From a virus, in the IMG/VR virus record IMGVR_UViG_3300012009_000049, positions 1 through 29,889 of that record: a DNA stretch of 29,889 nt. One strand, written 5' to 3'. The notes under the pieces are model-generated. The model had not been told where the DNA came from. It did no database searches and worked only from the letters and a program-made list of their open reading frames with translations. This document shows positions 805 to 29,889 of this stretch, piece after piece. The position numbers and the translations under genes are program-made. The first letter of the stretch is position 1, and every line of letters starts with the position of its first letter.

Positions 805-944
805 AATTCCCCCTCATCCTTAACTGCGTGATACTTTTCATCCCCGATGTCGTCCGGGTCTTTGTAGTACACGCACTCCCCAAGGAGGCACTGTCGGTCT
901 TCCCCTTGGAATCTACACTCATCCTTCGTGCAGTACTGGCTCAT
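801..944 (-). CDS. 47-residue Cys-rich protein, possible zinc-binding
   Basis: The chosen ATG at 944 overlaps the stop of the upstream replication-initiator-like gene (ATGA at 941-944) and follows an AGCAGG-like ribosome binding site. An in-frame ATG at 965 and a longer open frame reaching 1028 are less likely because they lie inside the upstream gene. The product has cysteines at residues 5, 10, 19 and 24 (two C-x4-C pairs), then an acidic tail. The pattern suits one small metal site or two disulfides. The stop overlaps the start of the Trp-repeat gene, so translation is probably coupled at both ends. No family recognised. Confidence 0.6.
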   Translation of the reverse strand: MSQYCTKDECRFQGEDRQCLLGECVYYKDPDDIGDEKYHAVKDEGEL

Positions 945-1522
945 AAAACCTGCTTGCTTTGCCATTTCAGAAACTCCTTCCACCGACCATTTAAGAAGCT
1001 GGTCGGAAACATTGTCGTCTTTTCCCACGCCTCGAACGTTACGTCACGCTGCCGACTCACTTGTTTGCCAAAATCCAAGTAAGCCTTAACTGAATTGATT
1101 ATCCTGGTTGGGTCAACGCCGGAGCGTATCATGTGGAGAAACACCGGGCGGGCATCATCTTCATGCGCATTGTTCGGGTACAGGTCCATAAACTGCCCAA
1201 ACAACTCTGCTTCCGCTTTGTTTGGCGGCGGCTCTTTGGTTATTTTTGATCTCCATTTTTTTGGCTCATTAAGTTTGTAGTACGTCCAGCCCGGCTCGGG
1301 CAGGGACGTGCGCAGGATGATATTCTTTTGTTCAAGCAGCCGGATCGTCCGGGTTATGTGGGATTTTTGTATTTGTGTTTCTTCGCGCAGCTGTTCCAAC
1401 TTGACTGAGCACATCTCCCGCTTTTCAACAATCATCAGCTCCGCGAGAGCGGCGAAAAGGCGCCACTCATACGAGGACAAGTTAAGTCTCTTTAGTCTTT
1501 TCAGTATGTTTTTAATCTCCAT
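941..1522 (-). CDS. Winged-helix replication initiator / replisome organiser-like protein
   Basis: 193 residues. Residues about 10-90 read as a winged helix: SYEWRLFAALAELMI, then a recognition-helix segment LREETQIQKSHITRTIRLLEQ, then a wing ending near GWTYYKLNEP. This layout resembles the N-terminal DNA-binding part of phage replication proteins of the lambda O/DnaD-like type. The C-terminal part (about 110-193, with SFLNGRWKEFLKW) resembles the helical end of such proteins, which commonly bind a helicase or loader. It lies two genes after the annealing protein and exonuclease, as expected for a phage replication-recombination operon. The start overlaps the upstream stop as TAATG at 1520-1524. 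A transcription regulator with the same fold is the main alternative. No helicase or loader is visible, although one could lie left of the window. Confidence 0.65.
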   Translation of the reverse strand: MEIKNILKRLKRLNLSSYEWRLFAALAELMIVEKREMCSVKLEQLREETQIQKSHITRTIRLLEQKNIILRTSLPEPGWTYYKLNEPKKWRSKITKEPPPNKAEAELFGQFMDLYPNNAHEDDARPVFLHMIRSGVDPTRIINSVKAYLDFGKQVSRQRDVTFEAWEKTTMFPTSFLNGRWKEFLKWQSKQVL

Positions 1523-1737
1523 TATACACCTCTCTTTTTTCGCTTTATGGACCCCGGGTCGGCCAAAACCTTAAAATTCCAGGCGGTGGCCCTGAGGATA
1601 GACAGAAACTCACACCCTCCCCCGGACTTCATTTTCTTAAACGCTTCGCAATCGGGGCGGCAATACCGTACTTTGGTGCCGGACATCATAGACAGCCAGC
1701 AGATTGTTCTTTCTTCGTCAGGGGCGTCTGGCATCAT
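1522..1737 (-). CDS. 71-residue Cys-containing protein of unknown function
   Basis: The ATG at 1737 overlaps the exonuclease stop (ATGA at 1734-1737), and a second in-frame ATG follows directly. Four cysteines at residues 13, 26, 30 and 42 could bind a metal, and the C-terminal tail is basic (IKRKKRGV). The stop overlaps the next start as TAATG. Its place inside the recombination operon suggests an early DNA-metabolism accessory role, but nothing in the sequence identifies it. Confidence 0.6.
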   Translation of the reverse strand: MMPDAPDEERTICWLSMMSGTKVRYCRPDCEAFKKMKSGGGCEFLSILRATAWNFKVLADPGSIKRKKRGV

Positions 1738-2717
1738 AACGGCTCCATTGTGTCATCAAAGTTCATGGCTTCAATTTCAATCTTATCCATGTATTTTTCC
1801 TTCACGTCCTTGGGCACATTGTAAACAGTCCGAGAATAACAGCGGGGGTTATACAGCCACCGCTTACCTATGCGGACTTTGCCTTGCCCCTTCAAGGTTG
1901 CATTAAGCTTCCTATGCAGTTTATCGTACTCTCCCTTAAGCGGCTTCAACTCTTCGTGTCGCCCCACGTCTGCTATAATCTCCGGGTCATTAATCTCTTC
2001 CAGCGACTCGACTTGTCGATTGCCGGGGAAGCATTGCTTAACCAGGGGGCAGTCGTCGCAGGCGTCACACCATATCGGGTCAGGCGCTTCACTATAGCTT
2101 TCTAATTTCTCCAGTCGCGCCAGCAGGAACGACACTGTGTTTTCGTCCACGTCATCCCATATCAGCTTATAAGCACCGCTCTCTTTGTCTTTGAATATCA
2201 CAAGCAGGTTCGGTATCCCCATCAGGATGTAATAACCGTGCAGGCTGTAGTAATAATCTCTTATCCAGAAGAACGGCGAGGACAGGAGTTCGCTCACCCG
2301 GCTGGTATGCCGAAGGGATCGGAACATTGCTGAGGAGCATGACTTGTAGTCAGCGATAAAGGGTTCACCGCCGACAGATAATATATCGTCAATCTCTCCG
2401 GTCAACGGCGGGCTCAGGGTCCAGTATCGCCGGGCTGGCTGCTCCAGGCGCCGGATATATTCATTATCCACCACGTTAACGTCAGCCCGCATAAGCTTTT
2501 CCTGCTGATGTCCCTCCCGGAATCGCCGCAGCTTTTCCACGGGGTCCCCTTCCGCCGGGCCAAACGTCTCCAGCCAACTCCACCTGGGGCAGTCCATCGC
2601 CCGCCCCAAGCCGCTAACCCGGAACATACCAGACAATTCTCTTTGCCTATCCAGGTCAGCCGCGATGTTATTCAGCGCATCCTGCGCCGCCTGTACTTTT
2701 TCTTTTAGGTTATTCAT
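1734..2717 (-). CDS. PD-(D/E)XK exonuclease, Cas4/RecB-like with Fe-S cysteines
   Basis: 327 residues. The RecB-family nuclease signature is visible: EGHQQEKLMR (His70), GEIDDIL with the catalytic Asp near 110, and FIADYKSC with Asp123 and Lys125, followed by an aromatic helix RDYYYSLHGYYI near 153-164. One cysteine at 43 (MDCPRW) plus Cys217, 220, 223 and 229 match the split one-plus-three arrangement that holds a 4Fe-4S cluster in Cas4, AddB and related nucleases. The expected role is resecting double-stranded ends to give single strands for the annealing protein encoded just upstream, with which it shares an ATGA overlap (2714-2717). The C-terminal 90 residues are unrecognised. There are no CRISPR genes nearby, so this is most simply the exonuclease half of a phage recombination pair. 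Confidence 0.82.
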   Translation of the reverse strand: MNNLKEKVQAAQDALNNIAADLDRQRELSGMFRVSGLGRAMDCPRWSWLETFGPAEGDPVEKLRRFREGHQQEKLMRADVNVVDNEYIRRLEQPARRYWTLSPPLTGEIDDILSVGGEPFIADYKSCSSAMFRSLRHTSRVSELLSSPFFWIRDYYYSLHGYYILMGIPNLLVIFKDKESGAYKLIWDDVDENTVSFLLARLEKLESYSEAPDPIWCDACDDCPLVKQCFPGNRQVESLEEINDPEIIADVGRHEELKPLKGEYDKLHRKLNATLKGQGKVRIGKRWLYNPRCYSRTVYNVPKDVKEKYMDKIEIEAMNFDDTMEPL

Positions 2718-3769
2718 CCGGCCTCCTCTTCTGCGATCTTAATTGATTCACCCAAGAGCTCCATCAGAAAGCCAGCTGCTTCCATATCCAGAGACCCGGG
2801 GATTTCCGCATAATGCGTGTCATATTGGTTTTCTAAGCGGTCAATGATTTTCGTGAGCAGCTTGTCCCGGTCGCGCCCAAGTTCTGCCATGCGGTTAATC
2901 TGCTCATTTATCTTTGCCTTTACAAGCCCCAGGTCCTCTGGCTCCTCTTGGTTTTCCTCTTCATCTCCCTCATCGACAACTTCAGCGTCAACGATCTCCT
3001 CATCTTCCGGCCCTTCTTCTTCATCTTCCGCTTCTGCCGCTGGCTCCTCCTTCTTTTCCTGTTTCTTCTTCGTGTCAGCCTCGCTCTGCGCCTTCTCCTG
3101 CTTTACCTTACCCTTGGCCTTGGTTCCGCTTTTTTTCTCATCCTCCGGCTTCTCCTGCGGCTTCTCTTTGTTTTCCTCTTGCTTCGGCTCTGCGTATTTG
3201 ATATCGCCCATCTCTTGGGCTGCTGGGATTTCATCAGCCGTGTATGGCATCCCGCTTATCTCTGCCGGGAAAGCCAAGCGGAAGCCCTGAGACAAACACA
3301 CCTTCATAAGCATGGTCCGGGGCATTTTCTTCCAAAATTTAGTAATATTCCCCTTGCTTGTGTATTGAACGTACTCATCCCACCAGACCTCATGGTACAG
3401 CGGGTGGTTCCAGTCTTTCCTGAATATCTCACACCAAGCAACCAGCACCCGGTTACCCTTGCTGTCCTCTTCATATTTCAGGCCCTTCTTTAGTCCATCC
3501 CATTGCTTGGACTTTTCAGCCCGCTTAAGGTAAGTCTCGTAGCCCACTACGATTGAAGCCGGCTGATCCCGCTTGTACTTGATCAGGTAGACTTCCCTCT
3601 TGAAGGGGTTTAGGTCCCACAGGCGGCAGATTTCAAGAAACATCTCAATCTCTTCCCGGCTGGCGTACTCGTTTATATGCCGGGTCACCACCTCTGGAGT
3701 TAGTTTAATTTGCGGAGCGTCTATCTCCGTGCCCCGCTTCTCGATCGCCTTGTCGTTTTGTTTTGTCAT
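2714..3769 (-). CDS. bet: Bet/RecT-type single-strand annealing protein
   Basis: 351 residues. Residues about 20-190 read as the phage recombination protein Bet/RecT core: EEIEMFLEICRLWDLNPFKREVYLIKY, SIVVGYETYLKRAEKSKQWDG and KMPRTMLMKVCLSQGFRLAFP. Such proteins coat and anneal single-stranded DNA. The following stretch to about 275 is a low-complexity Glu/Lys linker with acidic runs, and the last 75 residues form a separate helical segment, a longer tail than usual. The linker may recruit single-strand-binding or replication proteins. The ATG overlaps the stop of the small membrane-peptide gene (TAATG), and AAGGAG lies just before it. The stop overlaps the exonuclease start. It is the first clearly functional gene after the promoter at 3911-3939. 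Confidence 0.9.
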   Translation of the reverse strand: MTKQNDKAIEKRGTEIDAPQIKLTPEVVTRHINEYASREEIEMFLEICRLWDLNPFKREVYLIKYKRDQPASIVVGYETYLKRAEKSKQWDGLKKGLKYEEDSKGNRVLVAWCEIFRKDWNHPLYHEVWWDEYVQYTSKGNITKFWKKMPRTMLMKVCLSQGFRLAFPAEISGMPYTADEIPAAQEMGDIKYAEPKQEENKEKPQEKPEDEKKSGTKAKGKVKQEKAQSEADTKKKQEKKEEPAAEAEDEEEGPEDEEIVDAEVVDEGDEEENQEEPEDLGLVKAKINEQINRMAELGRDRDKLLTKIIDRLENQYDTHYAEIPGSLDMEAAGFLMELLGESIKIAEEEAG

Positions 3770-3897
3770 TAGATGATCTCCTTAAAAATGTAGATTAATA
3801 CCAAAACCGCAGCTCCCAGGCAGGATAAACATAGAATCCAACCAAGCAGACACGGCCAGTTAATGCGTTTTGTGATAAAATGCAATGCTTGTTTCAT
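3769..3897 (-). CDS. 42-residue single-helix membrane peptide
   Basis: A short frame with ATG at 3897, preceded by GAGAGGG, whose TAA overlaps the bet ATG as TAATG. The product has a basic amphipathic start (MKQALHFITKRINW) and one long hydrophobic stretch (about residues 15-38), so it should sit in the inner membrane. Coupling to bet supports it being a real gene, although it could act mainly as a translational leader. No family recognised. Confidence 0.55.
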   Translation of the reverse strand: MKQALHFITKRINWPCLLGWILCLSCLGAAVLVLIYIFKEII

Positions 3898-3908
3898 GCG
3901 CCCTCTCT

Positions 3909-3922
3909 ATCCTATATAGGAT
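3909..3922. promoter_or_regulatory. 14-base perfect palindrome over the -10 element (operator candidate)
   Basis: The sequence ATCCTATATAGGAT is a perfect inverted repeat covering the -10 region of the bet-operon promoter. That placement is typical of a repressor dimer site. No repressor gene is visible in the window. Confidence 0.5.
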
Positions 3923-3939
3923 TTAATTACCATTGTCAA
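3911..3939 (-). promoter_or_regulatory. Sigma70-like promoter of the recombination operon
   Basis: On the minus strand a perfect TTGACA (3939-3934) is followed, 17 bases on, by TATAGG (3916-3911). A TATATA at 15-base spacing is an alternative. Transcription would start near 3904, only a few bases before the ATG at 3897, leaving almost no leader. It lies inside the 3' end of the preceding small gene, so the bet operon can be expressed separately from the upstream early genes. Confidence 0.6.
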
Positions 3940-4015
3940 TGCCTTTTTTTTCATACAGCCGATACAGCCAACCCGAAAAAAAAGCGACGATAAACACCAG
4001 CAGCCCTTCAATCAA
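3923..4015 (-). CDS. 30-residue membrane peptide, TTG start
   Basis: A TTG at 4015-4013 overlaps the stop of the upstream zinc-ribbon-like gene as TTGA and is preceded by AGAGG at good spacing. The product has one hydrophobic segment (IEGLLVFIVAFFSGWLY) then a charged tail. The non-ATG start and small size make this tentative; the overlap and ribosome binding site are the main support. The bet promoter lies within its last codons and just beyond. Confidence 0.42.
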   Translation of the reverse strand: MIEGLLVFIVAFFSGWLYRLYEKKGIDNGN

Positions 4016-4212
4016 GGTTGCCTCTTTTTGACATGCTTATCTTCCGCTGTAGGTAAATATTTAGATTTGCATTTAGGGCAATATGCTTTATCGTAAGTTA
4101 TATGCCATCCATATCTTTTCGCATAGCCATGAATTGTTTCCCCCTGAATATAACCCTTATGCTTAGCTTTGCAATCAGAACATCTTAATATTATTTTTAT
4201 TCCATCAGCCAT
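4012..4212 (-). CDS. Small zinc-ribbon-like protein
   Basis: 66 residues from the ATG at 4212, which has GGAGGGAGG upstream. A longer frame to 4278 starts inside the upstream gene and is unlikely. Two C-x2-C knuckles (Cys11/14 and Cys45/48) are separated by 30 residues, with short strand-like segments between, which is a classic zinc-ribbon arrangement. The C-terminus is basic. Ribbons of this sort bind nucleic acid or partner proteins, but the target is unknown. The start lies in an 8-base overlap with the upstream stop. Confidence 0.7.
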   Translation of the reverse strand: MADGIKIILRCSDCKAKHKGYIQGETIHGYAKRYGWHITYDKAYCPKCKSKYLPTAEDKHVKKRQP

Positions 4213-4390
4213 TGGATTCCTCCCTCCACTGCTTATAATGCGGTGATTGTTTGCCATAAGAACAATCAGAATAAACACTTGTTTTTCCGGTATATCCGCA
4301 TGGGTGTTCTCCAGCGTAGGCTATCGCTTCACACTCAATAGGCTTTCCGCCCGCCTCATGCCACCAAAAACATGGCTTCTCAATTCTCAT
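4205..4390 (-). CDS. 61-residue protein with four cysteines
   Basis: The ATG at 4390 overlaps the stop of the upstream 28-residue frame as ATGA (4387-4390); a GTG three codons earlier is the alternative start. Cysteines at residues 7, 20, 31 and 43 and a Trp/Tyr-rich sequence (CFWWHEAGGKP) suggest a small metal-bound or disulfide fold. No family recognised. It is translated in a chain with the genes on both sides. Confidence 0.55.
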   Translation of the reverse strand: MRIEKPCFWWHEAGGKPIECEAIAYAGEHPCGYTGKTSVYSDCSYGKQSPHYKQWREESNG

Positions 4391-4473
4391 GGCCGCCACT
4401 CAATCTCCGCCCGCTCCTCCGGTGTTACCCGAATGAACAGCGTGGATGATTTGTTCTGTTTTTTATTTGTCAT
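4387..4473 (-). CDS. 28-residue peptide resembling the start of a ribbon-helix-helix protein
   Basis: ATG at 4473 follows a perfect GGAGGAG with seven bases of spacing and runs to a TGA overlapping the next ATG. The segment LFIRVTPEERAEIEWRP looks like the strand and first helix of a ribbon-helix-helix or MobC-type domain, but it ends before a second helix. It may be a real micropeptide, a remnant, or a leader that feeds ribosomes to the next gene. Confidence 0.5.
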   Translation of the reverse strand: MTNKKQNKSSTLFIRVTPEERAEIEWRP

Positions 4474-4500
4474 TATTTCTCCTCCTCAGGCAACCTCAAG

Positions 4501-4989
4501 CTAATCAAAACCTATCCCGTTTGCTCTTGCCCATTCTTCCACTTCCCCTAAATCCTGGGAGCTGAAAAGGATATTTTCTTCTCCGGTGCCGCCTTCATCG
4601 CAAGCGTCCGGGCACAAAACCTCCAATCTCCACCAGGGGGCGGCTTCTGCTTCTCCTGTAACATCGACTAACACAACCAAACCCAGCTTTCCGCAAAGTG
4701 CGCAGGGGCGCAATTCTGCCCCCGGCACTTTTTTGAAAGTTTCTACCACTGGGTCTTTCCATCCTTCCAACGGTTCGCCGTCTGGGTACACTCCAATGAC
4801 AGACCCGTCTGTGTTTTTAACCTCACCGCAGGCAAAGCGCTCATATTTTCCCTCTCTCATGTCCCATTCCGCGCCGTTAATATCCATAGCCAGGATATAC
4901 CGCTGTTGTTCGCCGTCCCCGGCCCCTTGCCAGTCACTCCAGGTGACGATTACATCGTTTCCGTCAATTTTTCTTGTTTCTTTTTGCAT
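4501..4989 (-). CDS. Unrecognised 162-residue early protein with paired Cys knuckles
   Basis: ATG at 4989 lies directly after the TAA of the upstream gene, with GGAGG before it. The protein is acidic. CALC at 96-99 and CPDAC at 126-130 form a possible zinc knuckle pair in an otherwise beta-rich sequence. The last 25 residues (LGEVEEWARANGIGFD) look helical. The first codons resemble those of the upstream gene (MQKARK versus MQKETRK). No function can be given. Confidence 0.7.
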   Translation of the reverse strand: MQKETRKIDGNDVIVTWSDWQGAGDGEQQRYILAMDINGAEWDMREGKYERFACGEVKNTDGSVIGVYPDGEPLEGWKDPVVETFKKVPGAELRPCALCGKLGLVVLVDVTGEAEAAPWWRLEVLCPDACDEGGTGEENILFSSQDLGEVEEWARANGIGFD

Positions 4990-5301
4990 TTAATCCTCCA
5001 GGCCCCAAGCTTTACATTCCGCTTGTTTTGTTTCTTCCTTTATAAAGTGGATCGGATAGTTTTTCTCTCGCTCATAAGCATACGGGTCCTTTTTATACTT
5101 TGCTGGTATCCACCCTGCCCCTGCCATAGCTTCAATCGCAACAAAACGGCTATGATCCCCATAGCCATAGGCAAACGGGACCGTTAGGGTATCCGAATTG
5201 TTTGTTTTTGTTATCCGCGCTGAAAAGTAACTGTTCCCATTGGCTTTATCAAACCATTCCTTTACGTGGACAATAAATTTGATTTTCCTTGCTTTTTGCA
5301 T
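4990..5301 (-). CDS. Unrecognised 103-residue early protein
   Basis: ATG at 5301 has GGAGGG upstream, and the stop abuts the next ATG. The first half is strand-rich (KIKFIVHVKEWFDKANGNSY, then FSARITKTN). A glycine-aromatic motif AYGYGDHSR follows, then a Lys/Tyr-rich end. The layout resembles small conserved phage proteins of unknown function that I know from environmental genomes, but I cannot name a family. It lies in the minus-strand early cluster. Confidence 0.7.
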   Translation of the reverse strand: MQKARKIKFIVHVKEWFDKANGNSYFSARITKTNNSDTLTVPFAYGYGDHSRFVAIEAMAGAGWIPAKYKKDPYAYEREKNYPIHFIKEETKQAECKAWGLED

Positions 5302-12112: not shown

Positions 12113-12344
12113 GAAAAAAAAGCCGTATGTTTATACGGCAGGATTTGAGAAAGATATGCGTGGAATGCTGCTTAAATTGGGTGCCCTTGAGGCCATGAGA
12201 GAAGAGGCCTCAAAGCTGCGCACGCAAAATCAAGTGTTGACAAATAAAGTTTTAGACCTTATAAATAAGTTGGAAGTCAAGCCCACGACGACCGGAACAG
12301 CAGAACCGCCCAAGAAGCCGACAGACGAAGATTATAGGTTCTAA
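12096..12344 (+). CDS. Small coiled-coil protein between terL and portal
   Basis: 82 residues. Start ATG at 12096 (or 12099), with AGGGAG upstream, overlapping terL by 17 bases. The N-terminus is basic (KKKKPYVYTAGFEKD). Residues about 18-62 form an amphipathic helix (LGALEAMREEASKLRTQNQV), and the end is Pro/Thr-rich. The stop overlaps the portal ATG (TAATG). A packaging or portal accessory is likely from its position only. Confidence 0.65.
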   Translation: MMPIFKKKKPYVYTAGFEKDMRGMLLKLGALEAMREEASKLRTQNQVLTNKVLDLINKLEVKPTTTGTAEPPKKPTDEDYRF

Positions 12345-14482
12345 TGGAAAAAGAAGCGAAGAAGAAAAAAGATGAGGGCAAGTCTCTTTCGGAATGGATT
12401 AAGATTGACGGCGAGAAAAAAGACCCCGAAGAATTTTGCTCATGGATTGACACTCAAGTCTTTCACCACCCGGTTGTAGAAAACCATCACGGCAAGTGGA
12501 AGGAAATCCTGGCTTGGGAGGAAGGCCATCAGTATTCTCTTTGGAATAAAACACAGGGCCGCGTTCTTCCTGTTGATCTAAACATCCGAAAAACGAAACT
12601 TGTAGTCAATGTCATAAAACCCCTGATTGAAACTATCGAAGGAAAGCTAAACTTTGAATATATGATCTCCGGCAAACCGAATTCCGGGGAAGACAAAGAT
12701 ATCCGGGGGGCCGATGTCGCCACAAAAATGCTTGACCACAATGATTACGTGGTCGGGATAGAAGACAGGCTGGAGGAACTTAAGGAAGATTTGCTCCGCC
12801 CTGGGAACGCTTGTGTCAAGTGGTGGTGGGACAAGAGCGCCAAAGGCCAATGGGCCCCAAAAAAGGGCGAGGGTATCGATAAAGAAAACACCCAGAACGA
12901 CCCTGGTGAGGTTGCCTCAGATGTTATTCCTATATTCAACATGCGGGTAGACCCGACCGCGCGAAGGCCGAGAGATGCTCGGTGGGCGCTGGAAATCAAA
13001 GAGGTGAACCGCGCTGATTTACTTGACATCTTCGACCTCCATGGAATTGACCTGAAGGATATAGACCCGACGCTTGAGTTTCAGGACCTCGAGGAAAACA
13101 AGGACAGCTACCCTATCGTCCGCAACGTAGAGAGGAAGGAAAACCAGCATAAAGAGTCAACATATATCATCAAGGAATACTGGGAAAAGGCAAGCAAGGA
13201 TTACCCGAAAGGACGATTTATCCTCACCTGCGGCCCCTATGTGCTTTATGCCGGGAAAAACCCGTCCCCGGAAGCCCTTCTCCCGTATTTTTTCTTTTTT
13301 TACAAAAAGCACAAGTACAGCTTTTGGGCCAATGGACCGGTCTATTATGTTATGGACCTGCAAAGAAACATCAACCGCACCATATCCCTTATCGCTGAAC
13401 ACATAGAAGCCTGGCGCCCCAAGATGGCGATCCCGGACGGCTCCTTAAAGCGTCACGCCAGCTTTACTGTTGGGCCTTTCGAGTTGGTCGAAATCGACAC
13501 CAGCAGGGGAGACCCCAAGCCGATAACTATGCCGGAGCTCTCTCCGCAGGTTATGGCTCACCGCGACTTCCTGATAGCATCCGTAGACAGGGTAAGTAAT
13601 ATTCATGAAGTGTCTTACAGTCGCTTACCTCAGTATGCATCCAGGGCCCCGGCCTCTCTTTACTCTATGATGCTTGAGCAGGAAAACATTAAGCTGGCCC
13701 CTATGGTAAAAATGGTGAATAAGACAATACAAGACATGGCGGCCTTTCGGCTGAAGCTTATGGGGCAGCATTACAAGCGCAAAAGAATGGTCCGGATAGT
13801 GGGCATAGCCAAGTCCACCTCAGTTGACTTTTTCGACGCAGATGACTTGAATCACAATTATGACGTCAGGCTTGAGCGCGGCGTCACAATCAATAAATCC
13901 AGCACTATCCAGACTAGGCTGTTGTTGGAGCTCTGGGAGAAAGGTTTACTCAAGGATGCCGACCGTTACAATATCATAAAACTTTTAGACTTCGGGACGG
14001 CGGAAAACGAGATTCGCTCCGATGTTGTTGACCAGGAAAGGGCAAGACGTGAAAACTATGCGTTGCTCCACGGCGAATGGGATAAGTTGCCGGACTACAA
14101 GCCTTTTAACTTGGACGTAATGGAGGCCTTGGGGATGCAGGGCCCTCAGTTTGAAGCGATGAAAGCACAGATGGATACAGAGAAAACGTCGAAAATATAC
14201 AAACATGACGATCATGCTTTACACTTAGATCAGCACACGACTTTGGTGAAATCTGAAGAATGGACCCAGGTTGACCCGGAGTTGCAAGTAAAAATGCTAG
14301 CGCACATTGAAGAGCACTTTTTCTATTTCCAGAATGAACAGCGTGCTCAGCAAGCGGCGCAGCACGGGCCGCCCCCAGCGAAGCCACCGGGAGTTAGTTC
14401 GTCTATTCCGCAGTCTGCGGGACCCGGAGGGACTTCCGGCGAACCCATGATCGAAGGGTTCCAGGGGGGACAAGGAGGGTAA
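12344..14482 (+). CDS. Portal protein (podovirus/P22-like)
   Basis: 712 residues, close to the size of P22-type portals. Typical segments are KLVVNVIKPLIETIEGKLNF (85-104), an acidic/basic region after it, PIFNMRVDPTARRPRDARW (196-214) and the long central helix and crown. NIHEVSYSRLP and VSRAP-like residues lie in the wing, and the C-terminal 200 residues are helical with Gln/Gly/Pro-rich ends. Twelve copies would form the vertex ring used by the terminase and later joined to the connector. Its order after terL and before scaffold and capsid agrees. It has no protease domain. Confidence 0.88.
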   Translation: MEKEAKKKKDEGKSLSEWIKIDGEKKDPEEFCSWIDTQVFHHPVVENHHGKWKEILAWEEGHQYSLWNKTQGRVLPVDLNIRKTKLVVNVIKPLIETIEGKLNFEYMISGKPNSGEDKDIRGADVATKMLDHNDYVVGIEDRLEELKEDLLRPGNACVKWWWDKSAKGQWAPKKGEGIDKENTQNDPGEVASDVIPIFNMRVDPTARRPRDARWALEIKEVNRADLLDIFDLHGIDLKDIDPTLEFQDLEENKDSYPIVRNVERKENQHKESTYIIKEYWEKASKDYPKGRFILTCGPYVLYAGKNPSPEALLPYFFFFYKKHKYSFWANGPVYYVMDLQRNINRTISLIAEHIEAWRPKMAIPDGSLKRHASFTVGPFELVEIDTSRGDPKPITMPELSPQVMAHRDFLIASVDRVSNIHEVSYSRLPQYASRAPASLYSMMLEQENIKLAPMVKMVNKTIQDMAAFRLKLMGQHYKRKRMVRIVGIAKSTSVDFFDADDLNHNYDVRLERGVTINKSSTIQTRLLLELWEKGLLKDADRYNIIKLLDFGTAENEIRSDVVDQERARRENYALLHGEWDKLPDYKPFNLDVMEALGMQGPQFEAMKAQMDTEKTSKIYKHDDHALHLDQHTTLVKSEEWTQVDPELQVKMLAHIEEHFFYFQNEQRAQQAAQHGPPPAKPPGVSSSIPQSAGPGGTSGEPMIEGFQGGQGG

Positions 14483-21056: not shown

Positions 21057-23780
21057 ATGCGGGACAGGCTTAGAAATCTACGGGTGTTGCGCGGTCGTGC
21101 CAATGGTGGAGTGGATGAGGTTTCCCGCGCGGTTGACATCGCAAGGAATGATTATGAGGCGATGGAGAACATGCGTCCGACAAAAGACGGAAAGTGGCTG
21201 GAGAAACGGGACGGCCTCGCCGCCGTAACCACCACCTCGATAACAGCCGCGGGCAAGCAGATTTTGGGCTACTTCACGTGCCATGATGACAGCGACGACT
21301 TTATCCAGATAGTCGCAACAGACACGGCAGTCTGGCGGAAGGTCGGGGCGGCGGCATGGGCTTCTGTCCACACCTGGACAAGCCAGATGTTTCACCCGAT
21401 AAAAATCCACCATTTCCAGGACAAGGTTATTATCGTAACCGAAGAAGATAATATCATGTTCTTGGATCACGGGAGCGGGACTAAGGTTCAGCTCGGGATA
21501 ACAGCGCCCACGACGATTCCGACCTTGACCGGGAGCTTTGAGAATACGGCTGCGGTAGACGAGGATTTTGACTATGCGGACACGGCAGCCCTAACCTCCG
21601 CCGGCTGGGTGGATGATGATAGCGGAGGGACGTCCGCGGTTTCAGCCTCTGACCCAAACAGCACGGCTGGCCCAGATGCTGACTCTAAGTATCTTCGTTT
21701 TTACGACGGCTCTCCCGGAAGCGGGCGGTATGCTTCTCGGTACAAGCTGGCCCCCGACATTCCCAGTGAATTCGATGTTGAGCTTAATGTTCACTTCGAT
21801 GACGCAGGGTACCAGCCGTGGAATGGCGACTTTCAGCTTCATGTTTACAACAGCGTTTATCATTTTGAAATCATCTTCTGCTCTTCTTACGTTTGGATAC
21901 ACAACGGCGTCCAATACAAAGAAGTCTGGAAGCCGCCGGGAAATAACATTAAGGACAAGTGGTGGAATTTCAAGTGTCATTGTACGGAGAATGAAATCAA
22001 GTTTTATGTCGACGAGGTTTTAAAAGGCACGGTGACCGGGTTCAGTCGTGCGGAAACGTCAACGACCAGCCGGGTCCAGTTGAAGCTGAAAACGGGGCAC
22101 GCGACTTACGGCGATGGAGATGTATACATCGACAGCATTAAAATCTCAGGCGGGGGAGGAGGCACGGGGAACCTGAACGGGACTTATCGGTATGCCGTGA
22201 CCTATGCGAGGAATTCAGGGAACTATCCGGGCGAGAGCAACCCCATCAAGGCAACGATAGGCTCAGCGACTCAAACCGGGACAGGCCTGGATGACATGAC
22301 TGTATCCGGAACGTATACCGGGGATGAGGAAAAAACCATCCGCGTCCAGATTGACGGGACGGGGACCCCGGACACTATTAAGTGGAGCGATGACGGAGGG
22401 GAGTCTTGGCGGTCTTACACGTATGAGCTGTCCAGTAAAATGTATCTTCCGTGGGGTATAGAGTTGAACTGGGGCGCGACTACAGGGCACACCTTGGATG
22501 ATTACTGGGAGTTTACAGCTTATCCATGCATTATCACCTGCACGAACCAGAAGGTAACCCTCTCCGCTATCCCGACGTCCTCGGACGCGCAAGTTACGCA
22601 GAGGAAGATTTACCGCACAAGGTCCGGGGGAGTGGCTTATTATCATTTGGCGACCATAAACAACAACACGACAACCTCTTTCGTGGATAACTTCACAGAC
22701 GCTGCTCTTGGGTTAACCCTGGCGGAAGATAACGATGTCCCCCCAAACGGGAAGGCCTCCGCGGTGTTTGATAACAGGTTGTGGATTTTAGATGATGACG
22801 AGAATATACTTTACTTCAGCAAGGACGCAAAGCCCGATCAGTTTAACCAGTCGGGGGATGGTTCTAGATACATCAGCCTTAGAGACGGTTCCGCAGATGA
22901 CGAATGCACTGGCATTATCCCGTATTCGGGACATTTGTTTGCTTTCAAGCGGGACTCTATCCATCAAATCCGAAAGAAACTAAGCGATGTCTACGGGAGA
23001 TATGAGGTTGTTAGCGGGCTAGGCAACATCGCCCCGTTCGCCCTTGTCGAGGTCTACGGTCTTCTTCTTTTTGTTTCCTGGAGAGGATGGGAAGCCTTCA
23101 ATGGGGAGCGGCCTTATGCTCCGGAGTTCTCTTATCCTATATCGGTTACCCTGTCCACAATCGACAAGGATTACACAGACAGGATTTCCGTGGTTCACAA
23201 GCCGGAGTTCCATGAGGTTTGGCTTTCCATCCCAAACAGAACCGGGTCGGCTGACGCCGTGACCGTGGTTAATAACTATTACACCGGGAAATTCTACACA
23301 TTCAGCTTTCACAAAACCCCATCATGCTTGGTGGCGGCAAGGGACTCTAACAAGGAGCGTCAAGTTTACCTAGGGACTACTGATGGAAACCTGTATACAA
23401 CCGACTCAGGCACCCAGGACGGCACGACAAACATAACCGCGACCGCAAGGTCGGGTTTTCATCGTTTGAGCCGCAATGCCCGCGTGGTGCGCTCAGATTG
23501 GGAGTTTGAGGCGCCGGACGGGAACGCTTGGACAATCAATCATTACATGGATTTCGATAAGGATAACAAAAGAACGGTTACGCTCTCGGGGAATGACCCA
23601 GCCACCACAGACCAAGAGTATCGGCAAGTTCAGCATAACCGGGATGAATTCAATATCCGAGGTGAATACCTGGCGTTTAAGATAACAAACGCGCAGAATG
23701 TCGGGTCTGACATGAAGATCGGCAAATGGATTTATGAGTATCAGGACTTGCACCTCAAGGGGGACGTGGCCGGTGACTAA
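21057..23780 (+). CDS. Tail nozzle / hub protein (P22 gp10-like), with inserted domains
   Basis: 907 residues; the start immediately follows the connector stop. Segments NRLWILDDDENILYFSKDAK and PDQFNQSGDG (about 573-602), GHLFAFKRDSIHQIR (625-639) and VYGLLLFVSWRGWEAFNGE (666-684) resemble the beta-propeller of P22 gp10-type tail stabilisation proteins. The opening (SRAVDIARNDYEAMENMRPT) is typical too. Two extra modules are visible. Residues about 165-363 read as a concanavalin/LamG-like beta sandwich (FDVELNVHFDDAG; EIKFYVDEVLKGTV; GDVYIDSIKIS) followed by a glycine linker. About 400-490 hold a TVSGTYTGDEEKTIRVQIDG module set inside an Fn3-like stretch. It should plug the connector and hold the fibre. 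Confidence 0.78.
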   Translation: MRDRLRNLRVLRGRANGGVDEVSRAVDIARNDYEAMENMRPTKDGKWLEKRDGLAAVTTTSITAAGKQILGYFTCHDDSDDFIQIVATDTAVWRKVGAAAWASVHTWTSQMFHPIKIHHFQDKVIIVTEEDNIMFLDHGSGTKVQLGITAPTTIPTLTGSFENTAAVDEDFDYADTAALTSAGWVDDDSGGTSAVSASDPNSTAGPDADSKYLRFYDGSPGSGRYASRYKLAPDIPSEFDVELNVHFDDAGYQPWNGDFQLHVYNSVYHFEIIFCSSYVWIHNGVQYKEVWKPPGNNIKDKWWNFKCHCTENEIKFYVDEVLKGTVTGFSRAETSTTSRVQLKLKTGHATYGDGDVYIDSIKISGGGGGTGNLNGTYRYAVTYARNSGNYPGESNPIKATIGSATQTGTGLDDMTVSGTYTGDEEKTIRVQIDGTGTPDTIKWSDDGGESWRSYTYELSSKMYLPWGIELNWGATTGHTLDDYWEFTAYPCIITCTNQKVTLSAIPTSSDAQVTQRKIYRTRSGGVAYYHLATINNNTTTSFVDNFTDAALGLTLAEDNDVPPNGKASAVFDNRLWILDDDENILYFSKDAKPDQFNQSGDGSRYISLRDGSADDECTGIIPYSGHLFAFKRDSIHQIRKKLSDVYGRYEVVSGLGNIAPFALVEVYGLLLFVSWRGWEAFNGERPYAPEFSYPISVTLSTIDKDYTDRISVVHKPEFHEVWLSIPNRTGSADAVTVVNNYYTGKFYTFSFHKTPSCLVAARDSNKERQVYLGTTDGNLYTTDSGTQDGTTNITATARSGFHRLSRNARVVRSDWEFEAPDGNAWTINHYMDFDKDNKRTVTLSGNDPATTDQEYRQVQHNRDEFNIRGEYLAFKITNAQNVGSDMKIGKWIYEYQDLHLKGDVAGD

Positions 23781-26700
23781 GATATCCAAGAAAAAGCCGG
23801 GGGCCCGCAAGCCAGGCAATCCCTTCCTGGACGCCACCTTCAACCTCAACCGTTTTGCTAATGAAAAAGGCATGAGGCCGGATGATATTGCAGAACGCAC
23901 GGGAATTCCGACAAATGAGCATATCGAGATTCAAACTATAGAGGGGATGACCTTCCTTAAGCTTGACGACACTCCGGATGAGTATACCGTCAGTAAATAT
24001 CTCCGGGTTAATGAGGACGCAGACGCTATAATTTTCGACGACTTGGATGTTGAGGTGTTTTGGGCGAAAGGGTCTGAGTGTATTTATTACAAGGACAGAA
24101 ATGTCGCCGTAGGAAAAACGACTGCCGACTATACGTTTGACGTTGAAGGGACGGTCCGGGCGACAACGGCCTTACTCTCTGACGCCCACGTAACAGCCGG
24201 AAGCTACGTCAAGGCAGACACTTACGTTGACGCCACAACGTATTATAAATTCGGCGGGAATAACCTATTATGGATAGAAGATGATAATAATATTATTCTT
24301 GGCGAGGACATTCTTGGCGGCGACAACCTGTCCGGCGTTAATTTTTCAGGCTCATTCTTGGGGGGGTACAAAGCGGCATGGAATGCAGAGTGGAGTCTAA
24401 GCTCTGTCGTCATCGGCGCTTATGCCGGTTATCATGGATCCGGGCTAACAAGGTGTGTTTTTTTAGGGCATTATGCTGGGGACGGAGAGGCGGCCGCAAC
24501 AAACAATGATTACACAAACACGATCGCGATTGGATGGCGCGCGAGGCAAGAGGGGAGCGGTGACACCTCTGGTGTTTACATTGGAAATAGCGCAGGGAGG
24601 TTCTTAGGCTACGGTCAGGATCGCATCTGTATCGGCCGCAGCGCAGGACGAGGACGAGCAACGGACCCGACGGGGTACCTGAACAGCACATATAGCTATG
24701 GTATTTTTATAGGGAGCTCTGCGGGCGGGAGCGGAGCTGCGAACATCACTGGGGATGATGATGTGGGCATAGGAAGAAACGCTCTTCATTCCGTCACCTC
24801 TTCCGCGCACAGTATTGCCCTTGGCAGGAACTCTTTATACCAAGTCACTGAAGGCTCTGGCAATATCGGCATCGGTGGATATGCTGGAAACACCCTCACC
24901 ACCGGGACGTACAACATCCTCCTTGGCTACGACGCAGACACGGACGGGGTTGATTACACAAATTCAATAGGGATCGCATACCAGGCGGCAGTGACAAAAA
25001 GCAACCAAATCGTGCTTGGGAACTCTTCTCACACGGAATTTAAGATGCCGATGTTTGGGGCCGGGTCATTGCAGTCGGATGCGGACGGAGTCGTTACCGC
25101 AAGCGGTTCTTTAGGGTTAGGCGACCCGGGGGCAGACAGGATTGCGTTTTGGGACGACAGCGAATCATGCTTAGCTTGGCTTACTCCCGGAACGGGGCTT
25201 TCCATAACAACGACGAATCTTAACGTAGACGTCGGTATTGCGAATGACAAAATCGTACAAGTTGACCAAGGGGCAGGTTTGACCGATGACCAAATGGTTA
25301 GGGCCACAGCCAACGGTATTGAGTCTATTTCCGATGCTGATTTATTAGCGCAGCTTTCAGGAGATGCCGGTGCGGCCTTCGATTGGAACGACCAAGACCT
25401 CCTGAAGGTTAACTCTCTGGCTGGCAAGGAAATATCAACACCAGCAAATCCGTCCGCAGGGTATAATAAATTATATTCCAAATCTGATGATAAATGGTAT
25501 ACCCTGGACTCAGACGGTAATGAAACTGAATTGGGTTCAGGCGGCGGCGCGTCTGCTTTCACGGATTTGACCGATGTACCAGCCAGCTATTCAGGAGAAG
25601 GTGGCAGTTTGGTTGCAGTTAATGATGCTGAAACAGACCTTGAGTTTATAACAAATGATGCTGTTACATCTTTGTGGGGAAGGGTAATGATTGATGAAGA
25701 TTTTGAATCTGTGTCAACAGGTGATATTGATACACAGGGAAGCTACCCTAATTTTGACGCTTTCAGTGTTACAGCAGATGCGAGTTGTACGGCGGAGGTT
25801 GTAGATGATTCAGGCAACCAAATATTAAGATTATCAGATTCAAATGCAAGCGGACATGTAGAGGCACAGATAGATGTTAGTGACCGTGAACCAACAAAAT
25901 TTTACTGCTCATTTAAAATGCGTATTAACAGTACATCATTATCGGGGCTGGTGATATTTACGCATGCCAATGCTAATTGGTGGCAATTTTATTTCCGGGG
26001 AGCAGATTCAACAATAAATTATTACGATGGCACCCGTCAATCGTTGACAGCATTTTCAGCAGATACATGGTATGAGGTAGAAATTTTGGTGGATACGCAA
26101 ACCGCGTCAGAGCAAATCTCAATGTGGGTAGATGGAGCATATGAATATTCAGAAGCTGGCCCAAACGTTGGCGGCTTCCCCTTAGCTTCCATCAAATTTG
26201 AAACTGTAGATGCAGATGATGGGGTTGTATTTGATATCGATGATTTTAAGGTTATTGACTTGTCACGGCCATATAGCGGAACGTTGCAGGGAGTAGAATT
26301 CGATAATATTAAAATTAAAGATGGTGGTGAATTGCGTTTATACGATGTCGGCGATTCTAATTATGTGGGGTTTGAAGCTCCGGCATTGACAGCTAATCAA
26401 ATATGGGTTTTGCCGGATGCTGACACTGCAGGCCCAGGATGCCTAAAATCTGATGGTAGCGGAAATTTAGGGTGGACGAGTGCGGTAACCGGGATATCAT
26501 GGGGCGACAATTTCACCATCGGCACCAGCGGCACTGGCCTTATTGGTTATTATGCCAATTTTGGCGCAAGTATGGCCGCAACAATCGGCAGTGGAAAAAC
26601 CTACTCAGACTGGGCCGATATGCTGTCATCTGCGCCGTCATTTTTTAACGGCAATTCAACAATTACGATTGGAACAGGTGAAACCTTATCGGAACATTGC

Positions 26701-27516
26701 GAATGGAAGTATAGGCATGGGATGGGTGATTATACCTTCACCATAGAGGCCGAGGATTATTTTCCGCAATCCGGTGCTATACCAACAGCCTCTTCTGCGA
26801 CAGCAACAACGCTTGTGGATTCAACACAGGCTTGGGCGGTTGACCGGTTTATTGACTGCTGGGTGCTGATAGTGGACGGCACGGGAACCGATAATGGGTT
26901 TGTGGCGATAACTGATAGTGACGCTACCAGCGTTACCGTAGCCTCCTGGCCCGGAACCCAACCAGACAACACCAGTAGATACATTATTGTCGGTGCTCTG
27001 ATAGACGGGGGCAATTCCAGAAATTACGGTATGAGTATTGAGGGGTGCACCATCCCTGTTCTGGTCAATGGAATCGGGTTTAAGGATTGTACTACCAGTG
27101 GTTTGATTAGTCAATTTGGAGCTTATACGTATTTATCATATTGCGGGTTTTATAACTGCGATAAAAGCGGAGTCAGGTTCACAAGCGCTTATCGGAGCAT
27201 ACTGCAGTATTCCGGTGTAGTTAACTGCAATACGGATAACGGAACGAATGATGGAGGATGCAGAATAGACGGTATTAATTACGCTTCTGTCGTTGGGTGT
27301 GCTTTTTCAGACAATAACCGAAGAGGTATACTGGTAGAGAGGGGCCATGCGGCAATTAACAACAACTTCGGTGACGGAAACGGAACCTGGGGCACATACG
27401 CCCAAAATAACGGGTTTGCAAGCGCCGGCGGCACGGAATGTTCCGGCTCTTCCGGCAATCATTCAGATGCGGGCACAGCGGGGAGTAACAGCGCAGACCA
27501 AGCCGTTGTGTATTAA
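23773..27516 (+). CDS. Multi-domain receptor-binding tail fibre / spike
   Basis: 1247 residues from a GTG at 23773, chosen because it gives the usual eight-base overlap and has AGGGGG upstream; an ATG at 23734 is deeper in the nozzle gene. The N-terminal 150 residues should attach to the nozzle. About 205-410 is a YadA-head-like left-handed beta roll with repeated IG-x-x-A units (VVIGAYAG, IAIGWRA, VYIGNSAGR, IFIGSSAGG, IGIGGYAG). Linkers with TDLTDVPAS follow, then a LamG-like sandwich (about 640-832, VMIDEDFESVS to IDDFKVIDLS) and a C-terminal beta-helix-like region (about 985-1225) with repeated Gly/Asn/Cys turns (CTIPVLVNGIGFKDC, YLSYCGFYNC). It should bind a surface glycan or other receptor; enzyme residues cannot be assigned. 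Confidence 0.85.
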   Translation: MTKISKKKPGARKPGNPFLDATFNLNRFANEKGMRPDDIAERTGIPTNEHIEIQTIEGMTFLKLDDTPDEYTVSKYLRVNEDADAIIFDDLDVEVFWAKGSECIYYKDRNVAVGKTTADYTFDVEGTVRATTALLSDAHVTAGSYVKADTYVDATTYYKFGGNNLLWIEDDNNIILGEDILGGDNLSGVNFSGSFLGGYKAAWNAEWSLSSVVIGAYAGYHGSGLTRCVFLGHYAGDGEAAATNNDYTNTIAIGWRARQEGSGDTSGVYIGNSAGRFLGYGQDRICIGRSAGRGRATDPTGYLNSTYSYGIFIGSSAGGSGAANITGDDDVGIGRNALHSVTSSAHSIALGRNSLYQVTEGSGNIGIGGYAGNTLTTGTYNILLGYDADTDGVDYTNSIGIAYQAAVTKSNQIVLGNSSHTEFKMPMFGAGSLQSDADGVVTASGSLGLGDPGADRIAFWDDSESCLAWLTPGTGLSITTTNLNVDVGIANDKIVQVDQGAGLTDDQMVRATANGIESISDADLLAQLSGDAGAAFDWNDQDLLKVNSLAGKEISTPANPSAGYNKLYSKSDDKWYTLDSDGNETELGSGGGASAFTDLTDVPASYSGEGGSLVAVNDAETDLEFITNDAVTSLWGRVMIDEDFESVSTGDIDTQGSYPNFDAFSVTADASCTAEVVDDSGNQILRLSDSNASGHVEAQIDVSDREPTKFYCSFKMRINSTSLSGLVIFTHANANWWQFYFRGADSTINYYDGTRQSLTAFSADTWYEVEILVDTQTASEQISMWVDGAYEYSEAGPNVGGFPLASIKFETVDADDGVVFDIDDFKVIDLSRPYSGTLQGVEFDNIKIKDGGELRLYDVGDSNYVGFEAPALTANQIWVLPDADTAGPGCLKSDGSGNLGWTSAVTGISWGDNFTIGTSGTGLIGYYANFGASMAATIGSGKTYSDWADMLSSAPSFFNGNSTITIGTGETLSEHCEWKYRHGMGDYTFTIEAEDYFPQSGAIPTASSATATTLVDSTQAWAVDRFIDCWVLIVDGTGTDNGFVAITDSDATSVTVASWPGTQPDNTSRYIIVGALIDGGNSRNYGMSIEGCTIPVLVNGIGFKDCTTSGLISQFGAYTYLSYCGFYNCDKSGVRFTSAYRSILQYSGVVNCNTDNGTNDGGCRIDGINYASVVGCAFSDNNRRGILVERGHAAINNNFGDGNGTWGTYAQNNGFASAGGTECSGSSGNHSDAGTAGSNSADQAVVY

Positions 27517-27562: not shown

Positions 27563-27886
27563 GTGCTTGACCAAGCGACGCAACAAGTAGTACAGCAAGC
27601 CCAAGGAGTCGTATATGGCGGGGCCGGGGCCCTAGGGTTGTTAATCTTATCCAATGTCGGCCAATGGATAAAAGAGTGGCGCCGCTCCCAAAAGATTGAT
27701 AAAATAAACGAAAAGCTGGATAAGCTGGTCGAGGCCAACAGTAAGCAAAACGAGAGGATTGTTCACCTGGCAACTAAGCAAGACAGCTTTTCAGAGTCAT
27801 GTTCTTTAGAGAAGACAAGGAATGATGTCCGAATCCGCTCGATTGAAGATCGGGTTTTAGACTTAAGCAAAGGAAAGGGAGGTTAA
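27563..27886 (+). CDS. Membrane-anchored coiled-coil protein
   Basis: 107 residues from a GTG at 27563, with AGGAGATCAGGA before it. One transmembrane helix (about 17-37, VVYGGAGALGLLILSNVGQ) is followed by a basic patch and a long coiled coil (about 45-80, IDKINEKLDKLVEANSKQNE). It could be a lysis protein such as a holin or spanin subunit, or a membrane-acting injection protein. The sequence alone does not decide. It comes directly before the virion-associated genes. Confidence 0.6.
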   Translation: MLDQATQQVVQQAQGVVYGGAGALGLLILSNVGQWIKEWRRSQKIDKINEKLDKLVEANSKQNERIVHLATKQDSFSESCSLEKTRNDVRIRSIEDRVLDLSKGKGG

Positions 27887-27887
27887 C

Positions 27888-28253
27888 ATGCTACCGTGGT
27901 GGGGAACTTTACTAATGGCCTTGGGCCCTTCCGTGCTGCAAATGCTTACAAGCGGCGGCAAGGACGGCAACCAAGACCAGTACAAACAGACGCAGGAGAT
28001 GACACAAAGCCCCAGGGGGTATCAGTCTCCCAACATTGGCTTGCTTGACCCAGCCCTTATGGACATGCTGATAAGGAACGTGCAGAGCTTTAGTGGCGCC
28101 GGGATGCCTGGCGGCGGCAACATGCCGGGCTATTTAGGCGACATCCTTGACATGCTCGGCGGTGACGCCGGTGGCCTCATTGACGCCTACAAAACAGGCA
28201 GCGCAAAGGAAAAAGGGCGTTCGCCGGAAAGAGGCAAGCGAACCCGATCATAG
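27888..28253 (+). CDS. Unrecognised Gly/Met-rich 121-residue protein
   Basis: ATG at 27888 follows GGAGG. An N-terminal hydrophobic stretch (MLPWWGTLLMALGPSVLQML) is followed by a polar Gln/Lys region and then Gly/Met-rich sequence (GAGMPGGGNMPGYLGDILDM), with a basic tail (RSPERGKRTRS). A hydrophobic head and glycine-rich body suit a virion or ejection protein, but I recognise no family. The stop is nine bases before the next ATG. Confidence 0.6.
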   Translation: MLPWWGTLLMALGPSVLQMLTSGGKDGNQDQYKQTQEMTQSPRGYQSPNIGLLDPALMDMLIRNVQSFSGAGMPGGGNMPGYLGDILDMLGGDAGGLIDAYKTGSAKEKGRSPERGKRTRS

Positions 28254-28262
28254 GAGGTTTCT

Positions 28263-29603
28263 ATGGGCTATTTCTTAGGTAAAGGTGCAGGCGCCCCGGT
28301 TACATTTGGGCCCACTGAGGCGAATCAACCCGCCGGTGACGCCGGGAGTGCGACAGCAGAACAATGTAGGCAAAGGTGTGACGAGCAATACCGGCAAATG
28401 CTGGCTGACGCAAACATCTCTAACGAGCGCGCAGAGCGAATGTGGAACCGATGCATCCAGCGGTGCGAGGATATCACGGGCCCGCACCCTGATGACCCAA
28501 TTAACCCGCCGGATGACCCTGCGACGCCCTGCCCTGGAGGGTACAAGCCTAAACTCATAGATGGAGTGCAAGTCGTGCCCTGCAAGGAAAGCTTTGTTCC
28601 ATTTACTGCTCCTGATGGAGGGAAGTGGTGCTGCCCGCCGCCGGACGACCCTGAGGACGATGGGGTCCCGTGCCAGGGGGGATACAAAGCACGCGTTGTG
28701 AACGGAAAGATAGCGCCTTGCGATGCGGGGTACATACCGACAACCACCCCCAACGGAGACCGATGGTGCTGTCCGCAAGGAGGCCCTGACGACCCCGACA
28801 CACCGGGAGGAGAGGACGTCCCGTGCGAGGGCGGTTACCTTTTAGCAAACGACCCGGTAGAAGGCGGCGGCGGGAAAATCTGGACAGACAGTGTTATTAA
28901 GGCCAGCGACGGGTGGTATCGGGACTCAAAAGCCCAGTCTCATAAAATATGGCATCCCGATTGGGGCTTCCAGCAACTTGAGGACGTGTATGCTTATATT
29001 CAGGGCAAGGGAGACTTGACCCCAAACAAAGGCAGCGCTTGCAAAAAGGGATATAAGAAAACAAACATAAATGGCGAAGAGTGGTGCTGCCCCGGCGCAG
29101 AAGGCGGCGGTGGTGGCGATGGTCTTGGGTATTTTCAATGGCCCGACGAGCTGATGAACCTCTACCGCAGCCTTGCCCAAAGGGGGACAGACCTGCTGGG
29201 GAAAGAGCCGGGTTTTTCTGATGAGGCTATACGGACAATGTTTGGCCGGGATTACGATAAGGTTCGGCAAACGGGCGATCTCTCCAGAGAGCGGGTCATG
29301 AACCAGCTCCAAACAGAAGGGCTCGCCGGAACCGGGACATCACAAGACGTCGGTATGGATACAGCCTGGCAGACAGAGCGGGCTCTCAATGATGTTATGG
29401 AAAACGTCTTTCTCGCCAATGAAGAGCAGAAGAGAGAGGACTTGAACCTCTACACAACCTTGGCTAACATGATATTGGGCTCAGGCTCTGGCTTCATCGC
29501 TGGAGGGGAAGCCATAAATGCTGGCCGCCGGGGAGAGCAGCAGAATAGCTTACAAATGCTCATGCAGTTCCTTCAAATGCTGCTAGGATCATACGCACAA
29601 TAG
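28263..29603 (+). CDS. Cysteine-repeat virion-associated candidate with twin CX3C motif
   Basis: 446 residues, GGAGG upstream. Residues 35-39 and 64-68 hold a twin CX3C pair (CRQRC, CIQRC) on two helices, as in disulfide-linked helical hairpins. About 90-276 has three repeats of the form C-x-GGY, x(14), C, x(14-15), CC-P: Cys90/107/123/124 (repeat 1) and Cys137/153/169/170 (repeat 2). In repeat 3, CEGGY at 188 is parted from CKKGY (260) and CCP (275-276) by an inserted segment of about 60 residues with Trp-rich DGWYRDSK. The C-terminal 150 residues (LSRERVMNQLQTEGLAGTGT; then helical) resemble internal virion or ejection proteins. No known family is assigned to the repeat. Confidence 0.6.
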   Translation: MGYFLGKGAGAPVTFGPTEANQPAGDAGSATAEQCRQRCDEQYRQMLADANISNERAERMWNRCIQRCEDITGPHPDDPINPPDDPATPCPGGYKPKLIDGVQVVPCKESFVPFTAPDGGKWCCPPPDDPEDDGVPCQGGYKARVVNGKIAPCDAGYIPTTTPNGDRWCCPQGGPDDPDTPGGEDVPCEGGYLLANDPVEGGGGKIWTDSVIKASDGWYRDSKAQSHKIWHPDWGFQQLEDVYAYIQGKGDLTPNKGSACKKGYKKTNINGEEWCCPGAEGGGGGDGLGYFQWPDELMNLYRSLAQRGTDLLGKEPGFSDEAIRTMFGRDYDKVRQTGDLSRERVMNQLQTEGLAGTGTSQDVGMDTAWQTERALNDVMENVFLANEEQKREDLNLYTTLANMILGSGSGFIAGGEAINAGRRGEQQNSLQMLMQFLQMLLGSYAQ

Positions 29604-29612
29604 GAGGCATAA

Positions 29613-29889
29613 ATGGATAAAAACACAGGCGGAATGAGCCTTATCGGGCGGAAAATAATGGAGCAGATGAATAAAATCGGGGAGCCGCGCACGGCCACGA
29701 CTACCACCACGATGGACGTCCCCAAGCCAAGCATCGACTTTGGCCAGCTTGGGATGCTGCTGGCGATGATGTTGAGCCAAGGCCAACAGCCAGGGACAGA
29801 GAAGCTTTTGGAGACCCCTGTCCCACCGGGAAGAACCGTGCCGATGCCCTCAGGCGCAGGCGTCCAGGGGGCCGGAATGGCAAGCGGAG
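29613..29889 (+). CDS. Unrecognised protein, cut by right edge
   Basis: An open frame starts at ATG 29613 with GGAGG eight bases upstream and has 92 complete codons without a stop. It begins MDKNTGGMSLIGRKIMEQMN, then has a Thr run (TATTTTTM), then IDFGQLGMLLAMMLSQGQQ and a Pro/Gly-rich end. The start resembles small virion or ejection components but is not recognised. It probably continues beyond the window. Confidence 0.55.
   Translation, partial: MDKNTGGMSLIGRKIMEQMNKIGEPRTATTTTTMDVPKPSIDFGQLGMLLAMMLSQGQQPGTEKLLETPVPPGRTVPMPSGAGVQGAGMASG

Follow-up and report, generated by a model that had tools for sequence, protein, structure and literature searches.

The gene and its genome context

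A gene at the right-hand end of an uncultured virus record raises the question of what a phage does with a protein so rich in paired cysteines, whether these form disulfides outside the cytoplasm or bind metal, and to what the repeats that carry them are attached. The record (IMGVR_UViG_3300012009_000049) is 29,889 bases long and was analysed whole; we refer to it as the window. The gene (28263–29603, plus strand) has an ATG start with AGGAGG at 28252–28257 and specifies a 446 amino acid protein, here named CysP, which consists of a head built of cysteine modules and a cysteine-free helical C-terminal domain, and for which ten homologs were found.

The structural genes of the window lie on the plus strand and include those for the large terminase (from 10595), a P22/SU10-type portal (12344–14482), the major head protein (from 15908), a possible nozzle (21057–23780; weak match to head-closure Hc3, E=0.0039) and, upstream of the block containing CysP, a tail spike or fibre (23734–27516; phrog_4636, E=3.6e-8). 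Directly before CysP are two small genes, both on the plus strand. The first (27563–27886) codes for a 107 amino acid protein with a possible single membrane helix, and a counterpart of 105–121 amino acids occupies the matching position in several relatives. The second (27888–28253) codes for a cysteine-free protein of 121 amino acids with a YQSP motif, which also has a counterpart in the relatives. After CysP only the start of the next block gene is present (29613–29888, plus strand), free of cysteine up to the point where the contig end interrupts it.

GC skew and coding strand both switch near 5.5–6 kb of the window (1–5300 versus 6000 onward), and the minus strand carries RecT (2714–3769) and a MarR/phage replication O-like protein (941–1522). 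The annotated start of the spike gene lies 47 bases inside the gene before it, and may have been placed too early. By eye, its product carries, as NPFLDATFN, a version of an N-terminal segment (NPWLDPxFNTC) common to spike or fibre proteins in three other records (L024, 2447–3412; L025, 11698–15546; L031, 5642–8707); the distal parts of these proteins are very different despite the common segment, as with a shared anchor.

Homologs of CysP

Searches of the window CysP against Pfam, PHROGs, NCBIfam and PDB sequences, and by tblastn against cultured phages, gave nothing significant, and viral and genome contigs scanned with this protein alone revealed no relative. Homologs were reached through other genes. 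Twelve relatives of the portal were collected and their whole records searched, of which four encode a CysP homolog; four more were picked up with a C-terminal domain profile, and the giant protein encoded downstream, used as a lead, gave another two. The family therefore has eleven members, the ten homologs all residing in uncultured phages. With the C-terminal profile no confirmed copy was found in the prokaryote genome collection, where distant copies could escape since the scan is seeded by short exact peptide patterns. The cultured-phage collection likewise gave no confirmed homolog, with a weak cyanophage match at most, and the profile detected no CysP in L043, a distant relative by its giant protein. 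An alignment of the repeat units was too weakly conserved for contig searching, and its PDB matches were set aside as looking like chance. Also rejected was a weak match (E=4e-3) between the modules of one homolog (L032) and cyanophage gp5, a baseplate hub/tail lysozyme protein of cyanophage S-SCSM2R (L038, 20047–22470), which may be chance. The original prediction knew of no phage family with this plan, and neither a curated family nor a cultured-phage relative emerged here.

The cysteine-rich head

All 16 cysteines of CysP fall within residues 1–276, and its cysteine content of 3.59% compares with 0–2.1% in the 21 other open reading frames measured. The predicted arrangement of a twin CX3C pair followed by three C-GGY..C..WCCP units was borne out. 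The pair (C35, C39, C64 and C68) lies in residues 32–71 (28356–28475, plus strand), and the model shows it as a helical hairpin with a pLDDT of about 80. The units follow on the same strand at residues 90–125 (28530–28637), 137–171 (28671–28775) and 188–277 (28824–29093). In 20,000 composition-matched shuffles, three WCCP together with three CxGGY motifs never occurred; two CX3C motifs alone were reached by 9% of shuffles, so that the pair taken singly is a weak motif. The hairpin, CX3C-X24-CX3C, resembles those of the small-Tim type in being modelled as two helices; CysP differs in lacking a Pfam match to that family, and the resemblance is one of motif only. At a mean pLDDT of 56 the model of the whole protein is poor, and for this reason neither the folds of the units nor the pairing of the cysteines was taken from it.

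The third unit is interrupted, as had been predicted. Its first and second cysteines are 72 residues apart compared with 16–17 in the other units, which gives an insert of about 55 residues, slightly shorter than the roughly 60 first estimated, at approximately residues 196–252 (28848–29018, plus strand). The last unit of one homolog (G009) carries the same insert, with 38% identity over 93 residues that include both unit ends. By this homology the insert is inherited. The single WCCP unit of L032 is without it.

Across the family the spacing first noted is kept in part. The twin CX3C hairpin occurs in eight of the eleven members; the WCCP plan is found in three and is missing from the remainder. 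What was first observed is real and conserved, and no artefact.

Exchange of modules on a constant domain

The constant part of the family is not the repeats: it is a helical domain of some 160 amino acids at the C terminus. The head is a mosaic which, besides the hairpins and WCCP units, contains CPC..C..GY..CxC units in seven of the eleven members and Myxo_Cys_RPT-type repeats in several, and in ten members a module of WCCP or CPC..CxC type stands last before the constant domain. The WCCP plan represents one among several interchangeable heads that the conserved, cysteine-free C-terminal domain carries.

Two relatives, G001 and G002, display this most clearly. Their constant domains are 97% identical, the 273 bases before the head are 100% identical, and 274 of the 275 bases after it agree. 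The heads are wholly different, G002 having two twin-CX3C hairpins and G001 other cysteine modules. This looks like an exchange of modules and not drift.

Such mosaicism and so clean a cassette swap are typical of receptor-binding proteins. They favour the main rival to the role proposed below, namely that CysP is displayed on the outside as a tail-tip or adhesion protein, anchored to the tail by its C-terminal domain, with a receptor-binding cysteine head oxidised after lysis. The gene does lie shortly downstream of that for the tail spike, and a displayed protein could acquire its disulfides without refolding after ejection. Against this, the gene sits inside the block and not beside the nozzle, the C-terminal domain, like the flanking genes, has the cysteine depletion of ejection proteins, and the fold of the domain is unlike that of any tail anchor in the partial list compared. 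We regard a tail-tip role as possible but rather unlikely.

Disulfides or metal

The heads contain between 10 and 24 cysteines, and always an even number. The eleven counts (16, 16, 18, 22, 24, 10, 16, 22, 10, 10 and 24) are not independent, since the members are related and each added module raises the count by an even number. Matches to TIGR04201 (Myxo_Cys_RPT) occur in six of the eleven phage records, inside the CysP reading frames, and exceed the curated cut-off in two relatives (G014 and G017); there were none in 14 control genomes and none in the window CysP. Repeats of the form DxDCPxGxxCxxGxC are shared between several relatives and the Myxo_Cys_RPT family, with the difference that those of the phages sit on a virion-type domain. 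The relatives' repeats also have weak Pfam matches to DUF7107, Dickkopf_N and EB. We take all four families to represent extracytoplasmic modules of the disulfide type.

The original prediction had left the choice between disulfides formed outside the cytoplasm and metal sites. Since the cysteine counts are even and the repeats match extracytoplasmic types, disulfides are the better of the two, and we infer that those of the head would be formed outside the cytoplasm. Cysteine modules that bind metal (zinc) in the cytoplasm or capsid, and make up small zinc-stabilised folds, are the less favoured half of the original pair. CX3C, CPC and CC motifs are able to ligate metal and CysP is synthesized in a reducing cytoplasm. 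Set against this are cysteine numbers that are even throughout, repeats in the relatives that fall to the four families named above, and the lack of any match between the cysteine modules and a zinc-finger family, and we consider metal binding distinctly improbable.

The conserved C-terminal domain

The C-terminal 160 residues of CysP were absent from the original description. The domain comprises residues 289–446 (29127–29600, plus strand) and is without cysteine in all eleven members (0 of 1,927 residues). It carries a motif, NAxRRGE, in which N, A, R, R, G and E are invariant among nine aligned members; a later member (L042) reads SAGRRGE at this position. Modelled alone (pLDDT 78), the domain has four helices, of which two are long, with a glycine-rich turn linking them.

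In structural re-alignment, the full CysP model placed gp14 of coliphage T7 at rank 1 (7ey7, Z=9.0 over 100 residues), and with the domain model gp14 chains held ranks 7, 9 and 16 (9jz0, Z=8.4 over 117 residues; 8e4g, Z=8.3 over 121; 7ey7, Z=7.8 over 100). All three chains were confirmed to be gp14. This internal virion protein forms an outer-membrane channel, and the stretch of it seen in 7ey7 is the hexameric channel observed after ejection (PMC8954989). The similarity concerns the modelled helical arrangement over gp14 residues 21–145; for the helical channel segment (residues 37–139) the Z values of 7.8–9.0 over 100–121 residues lie in the range of common helical arrangements, and unrelated proteins score alike. 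Foldseek searches of PDB and of viral models returned no hit at E=0.001. Profile comparisons with T7 gp14, gp7 and the SU10 proteins were negative (gp14, E=0.24–0.63). Because the Z values are ordinary, the Foldseek result is not significant and the profiles are negative, we rejected filing the domain as a gp14. Among phage proteins gp14 is nevertheless the best match to the modelled fold, weakly, and the domain may work in a similar way. The two proteins also differ: gp14 has one cysteine and no cysteine-rich head, and is about 200 amino acids long compared with 314–458 in the CysP family. Simple hydropathy finds no strong transmembrane segment in CysP, a test which T7 gp14 fails too.

Cysteine depletion in the gene block

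In the relatives the block runs in the order 121–163 amino acids, CysP, about 140–230 amino acids (missing in some), 300–420 and 1750–2550; since the window ends before them, the large block genes of its phage are inferred from these relatives. The block lies downstream of the nozzle and fibre genes and CysP precedes the medium and giant genes, and its late position is like that of the ejection genes in phages SU10, P22 and T7. T7- and P22-like phages have ejection genes in the order small, medium, giant (PMC8954989), with gp14 first in T7. Gp20–24 of SU10 (Kuravirus) belong to the virion and are lost from it once the genome has been released (PMC9509320). As with the CysP block, their relative map position is after the terminase, portal, head, nozzle and fibre genes, and a series of small genes leads up to a giant one. 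They show no detectable sequence similarity to CysP; among 16 comparisons, one with gp21 gave the best value (E=0.033).

That the gene keeps its place in a structural block across the relatives argues against a non-virion role late in infection, for example as a secreted factor or, at the time of lysis, at the envelope. Disulfide-rich mini-domains are frequent among secreted proteins, and a small possible membrane protein is encoded two genes upstream; CysP itself has neither a hydrophobic segment nor a signal-like start, and such a role seems very unlikely.

Cysteine usage in ejection proteins was counted in eight podoviruses (T7, P22, SU10, Sf6, epsilon15, phiKMV, P-SSP7 and SP6; L046 and L052–L058), with the proteins picked from annotations and the review PMC8954989. 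The ejection proteins contain 8 cysteines in 17,611 residues (0.045%), compared with 139 in 20,225 (0.69%) for other virion and terminase proteins. The neighbours of CysP in the block have 5 in 11,996 (0.042%), whereas the proteins of terminase, head and nozzle in the window have 22 in 2,790. The p values of the two differences (2.6e-28 and 3e-12, respectively) are indicative, since protein choice followed annotations and that review and residues were treated as independent. No mention of this depletion was found in the open papers located. It may also offer an inexpensive way to spot ejection genes in an unknown phage. The C-terminal domain and the neighbours of CysP conform to it, the latter nearly as cysteine-free as SU10 gp20–24, which have none; the head is contrary. 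The unusual point is this cysteine-rich, swappable head amid a neighbourhood which otherwise excludes cysteine.

Several other proteins near the block merit mention. The downstream proteins of about 1,950 amino acids in G001 and G002 (L025, 1992–7886; L026, 10623–16454), of which the G001 copy has no cysteine, contain NLYRGARP...DLGAGIYWTD, which by eye resembles an ADP-ribosyltransferase motif; Pfam gave no match. In a gene upstream of the block in L033 (7963–8958) a serine-protease-like motif (LSNNHVLA ... GDSGSA) was seen by eye. A tail-fibre-like protein encoded upstream of CysP in L032 (6177–8768) has a C-terminal PT-HINT/Hint (intein-like) domain (residues 737–858, Pfam E=1e-16) and a CBM_4_9 carbohydrate-binding domain.

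Proposed role of CysP

CysP, which carries no name in the libraries covered by the searches, is best described as a variant protein of the podovirus ejection block. Ejection proteins exit via the portal and form anew within the envelope of the cell that is infected next. We propose, giving it about an even chance, that CysP belongs to the ejection (pilot) set of virion proteins of a short-tailed phage and that its head, disulfide-bonded outside the cytoplasm, touches the host envelope. The helical C-terminal domain would package or assemble CysP with the other ejection proteins. The head would be synthesized reduced, in the cytoplasm of the producing cell, and oxidise beyond it, either in the particle released after lysis or on reaching the periplasm of a new host. 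Once oxidised it could provide small rigid binding domains facing the envelope, and exchange of modules would adapt this contact to the host. Of this picture, the domain plan, the place of the gene, the contrast in cysteine content with its neighbours and the cassette swap are observed, while ejection, oxidation and contact with the envelope belong to the proposal.

Support for an ejection role comes from the position in the block, the cysteine depletion, the ranking of gp14, the even cysteine counts, the extracytoplasmic-type repeats and the cassette swap; it is weakened by the ordinary Z values, the negative Foldseek and profile comparisons, the cysteine-rich head and the lack of a strong transmembrane segment.

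A further step, which we put forward as speculative and on balance unlikely, is that ejected CysP docks through its swappable disulfide head on host-specific envelope components, cassette exchange then partly setting host specificity after adsorption. An ejection protein whose exchangeable modules hold 10–24 cysteines would stand as an exception to a nearly cysteine-free class and would test where and how ejection proteins fold. It would also suggest a second layer of host contact, following adsorption.
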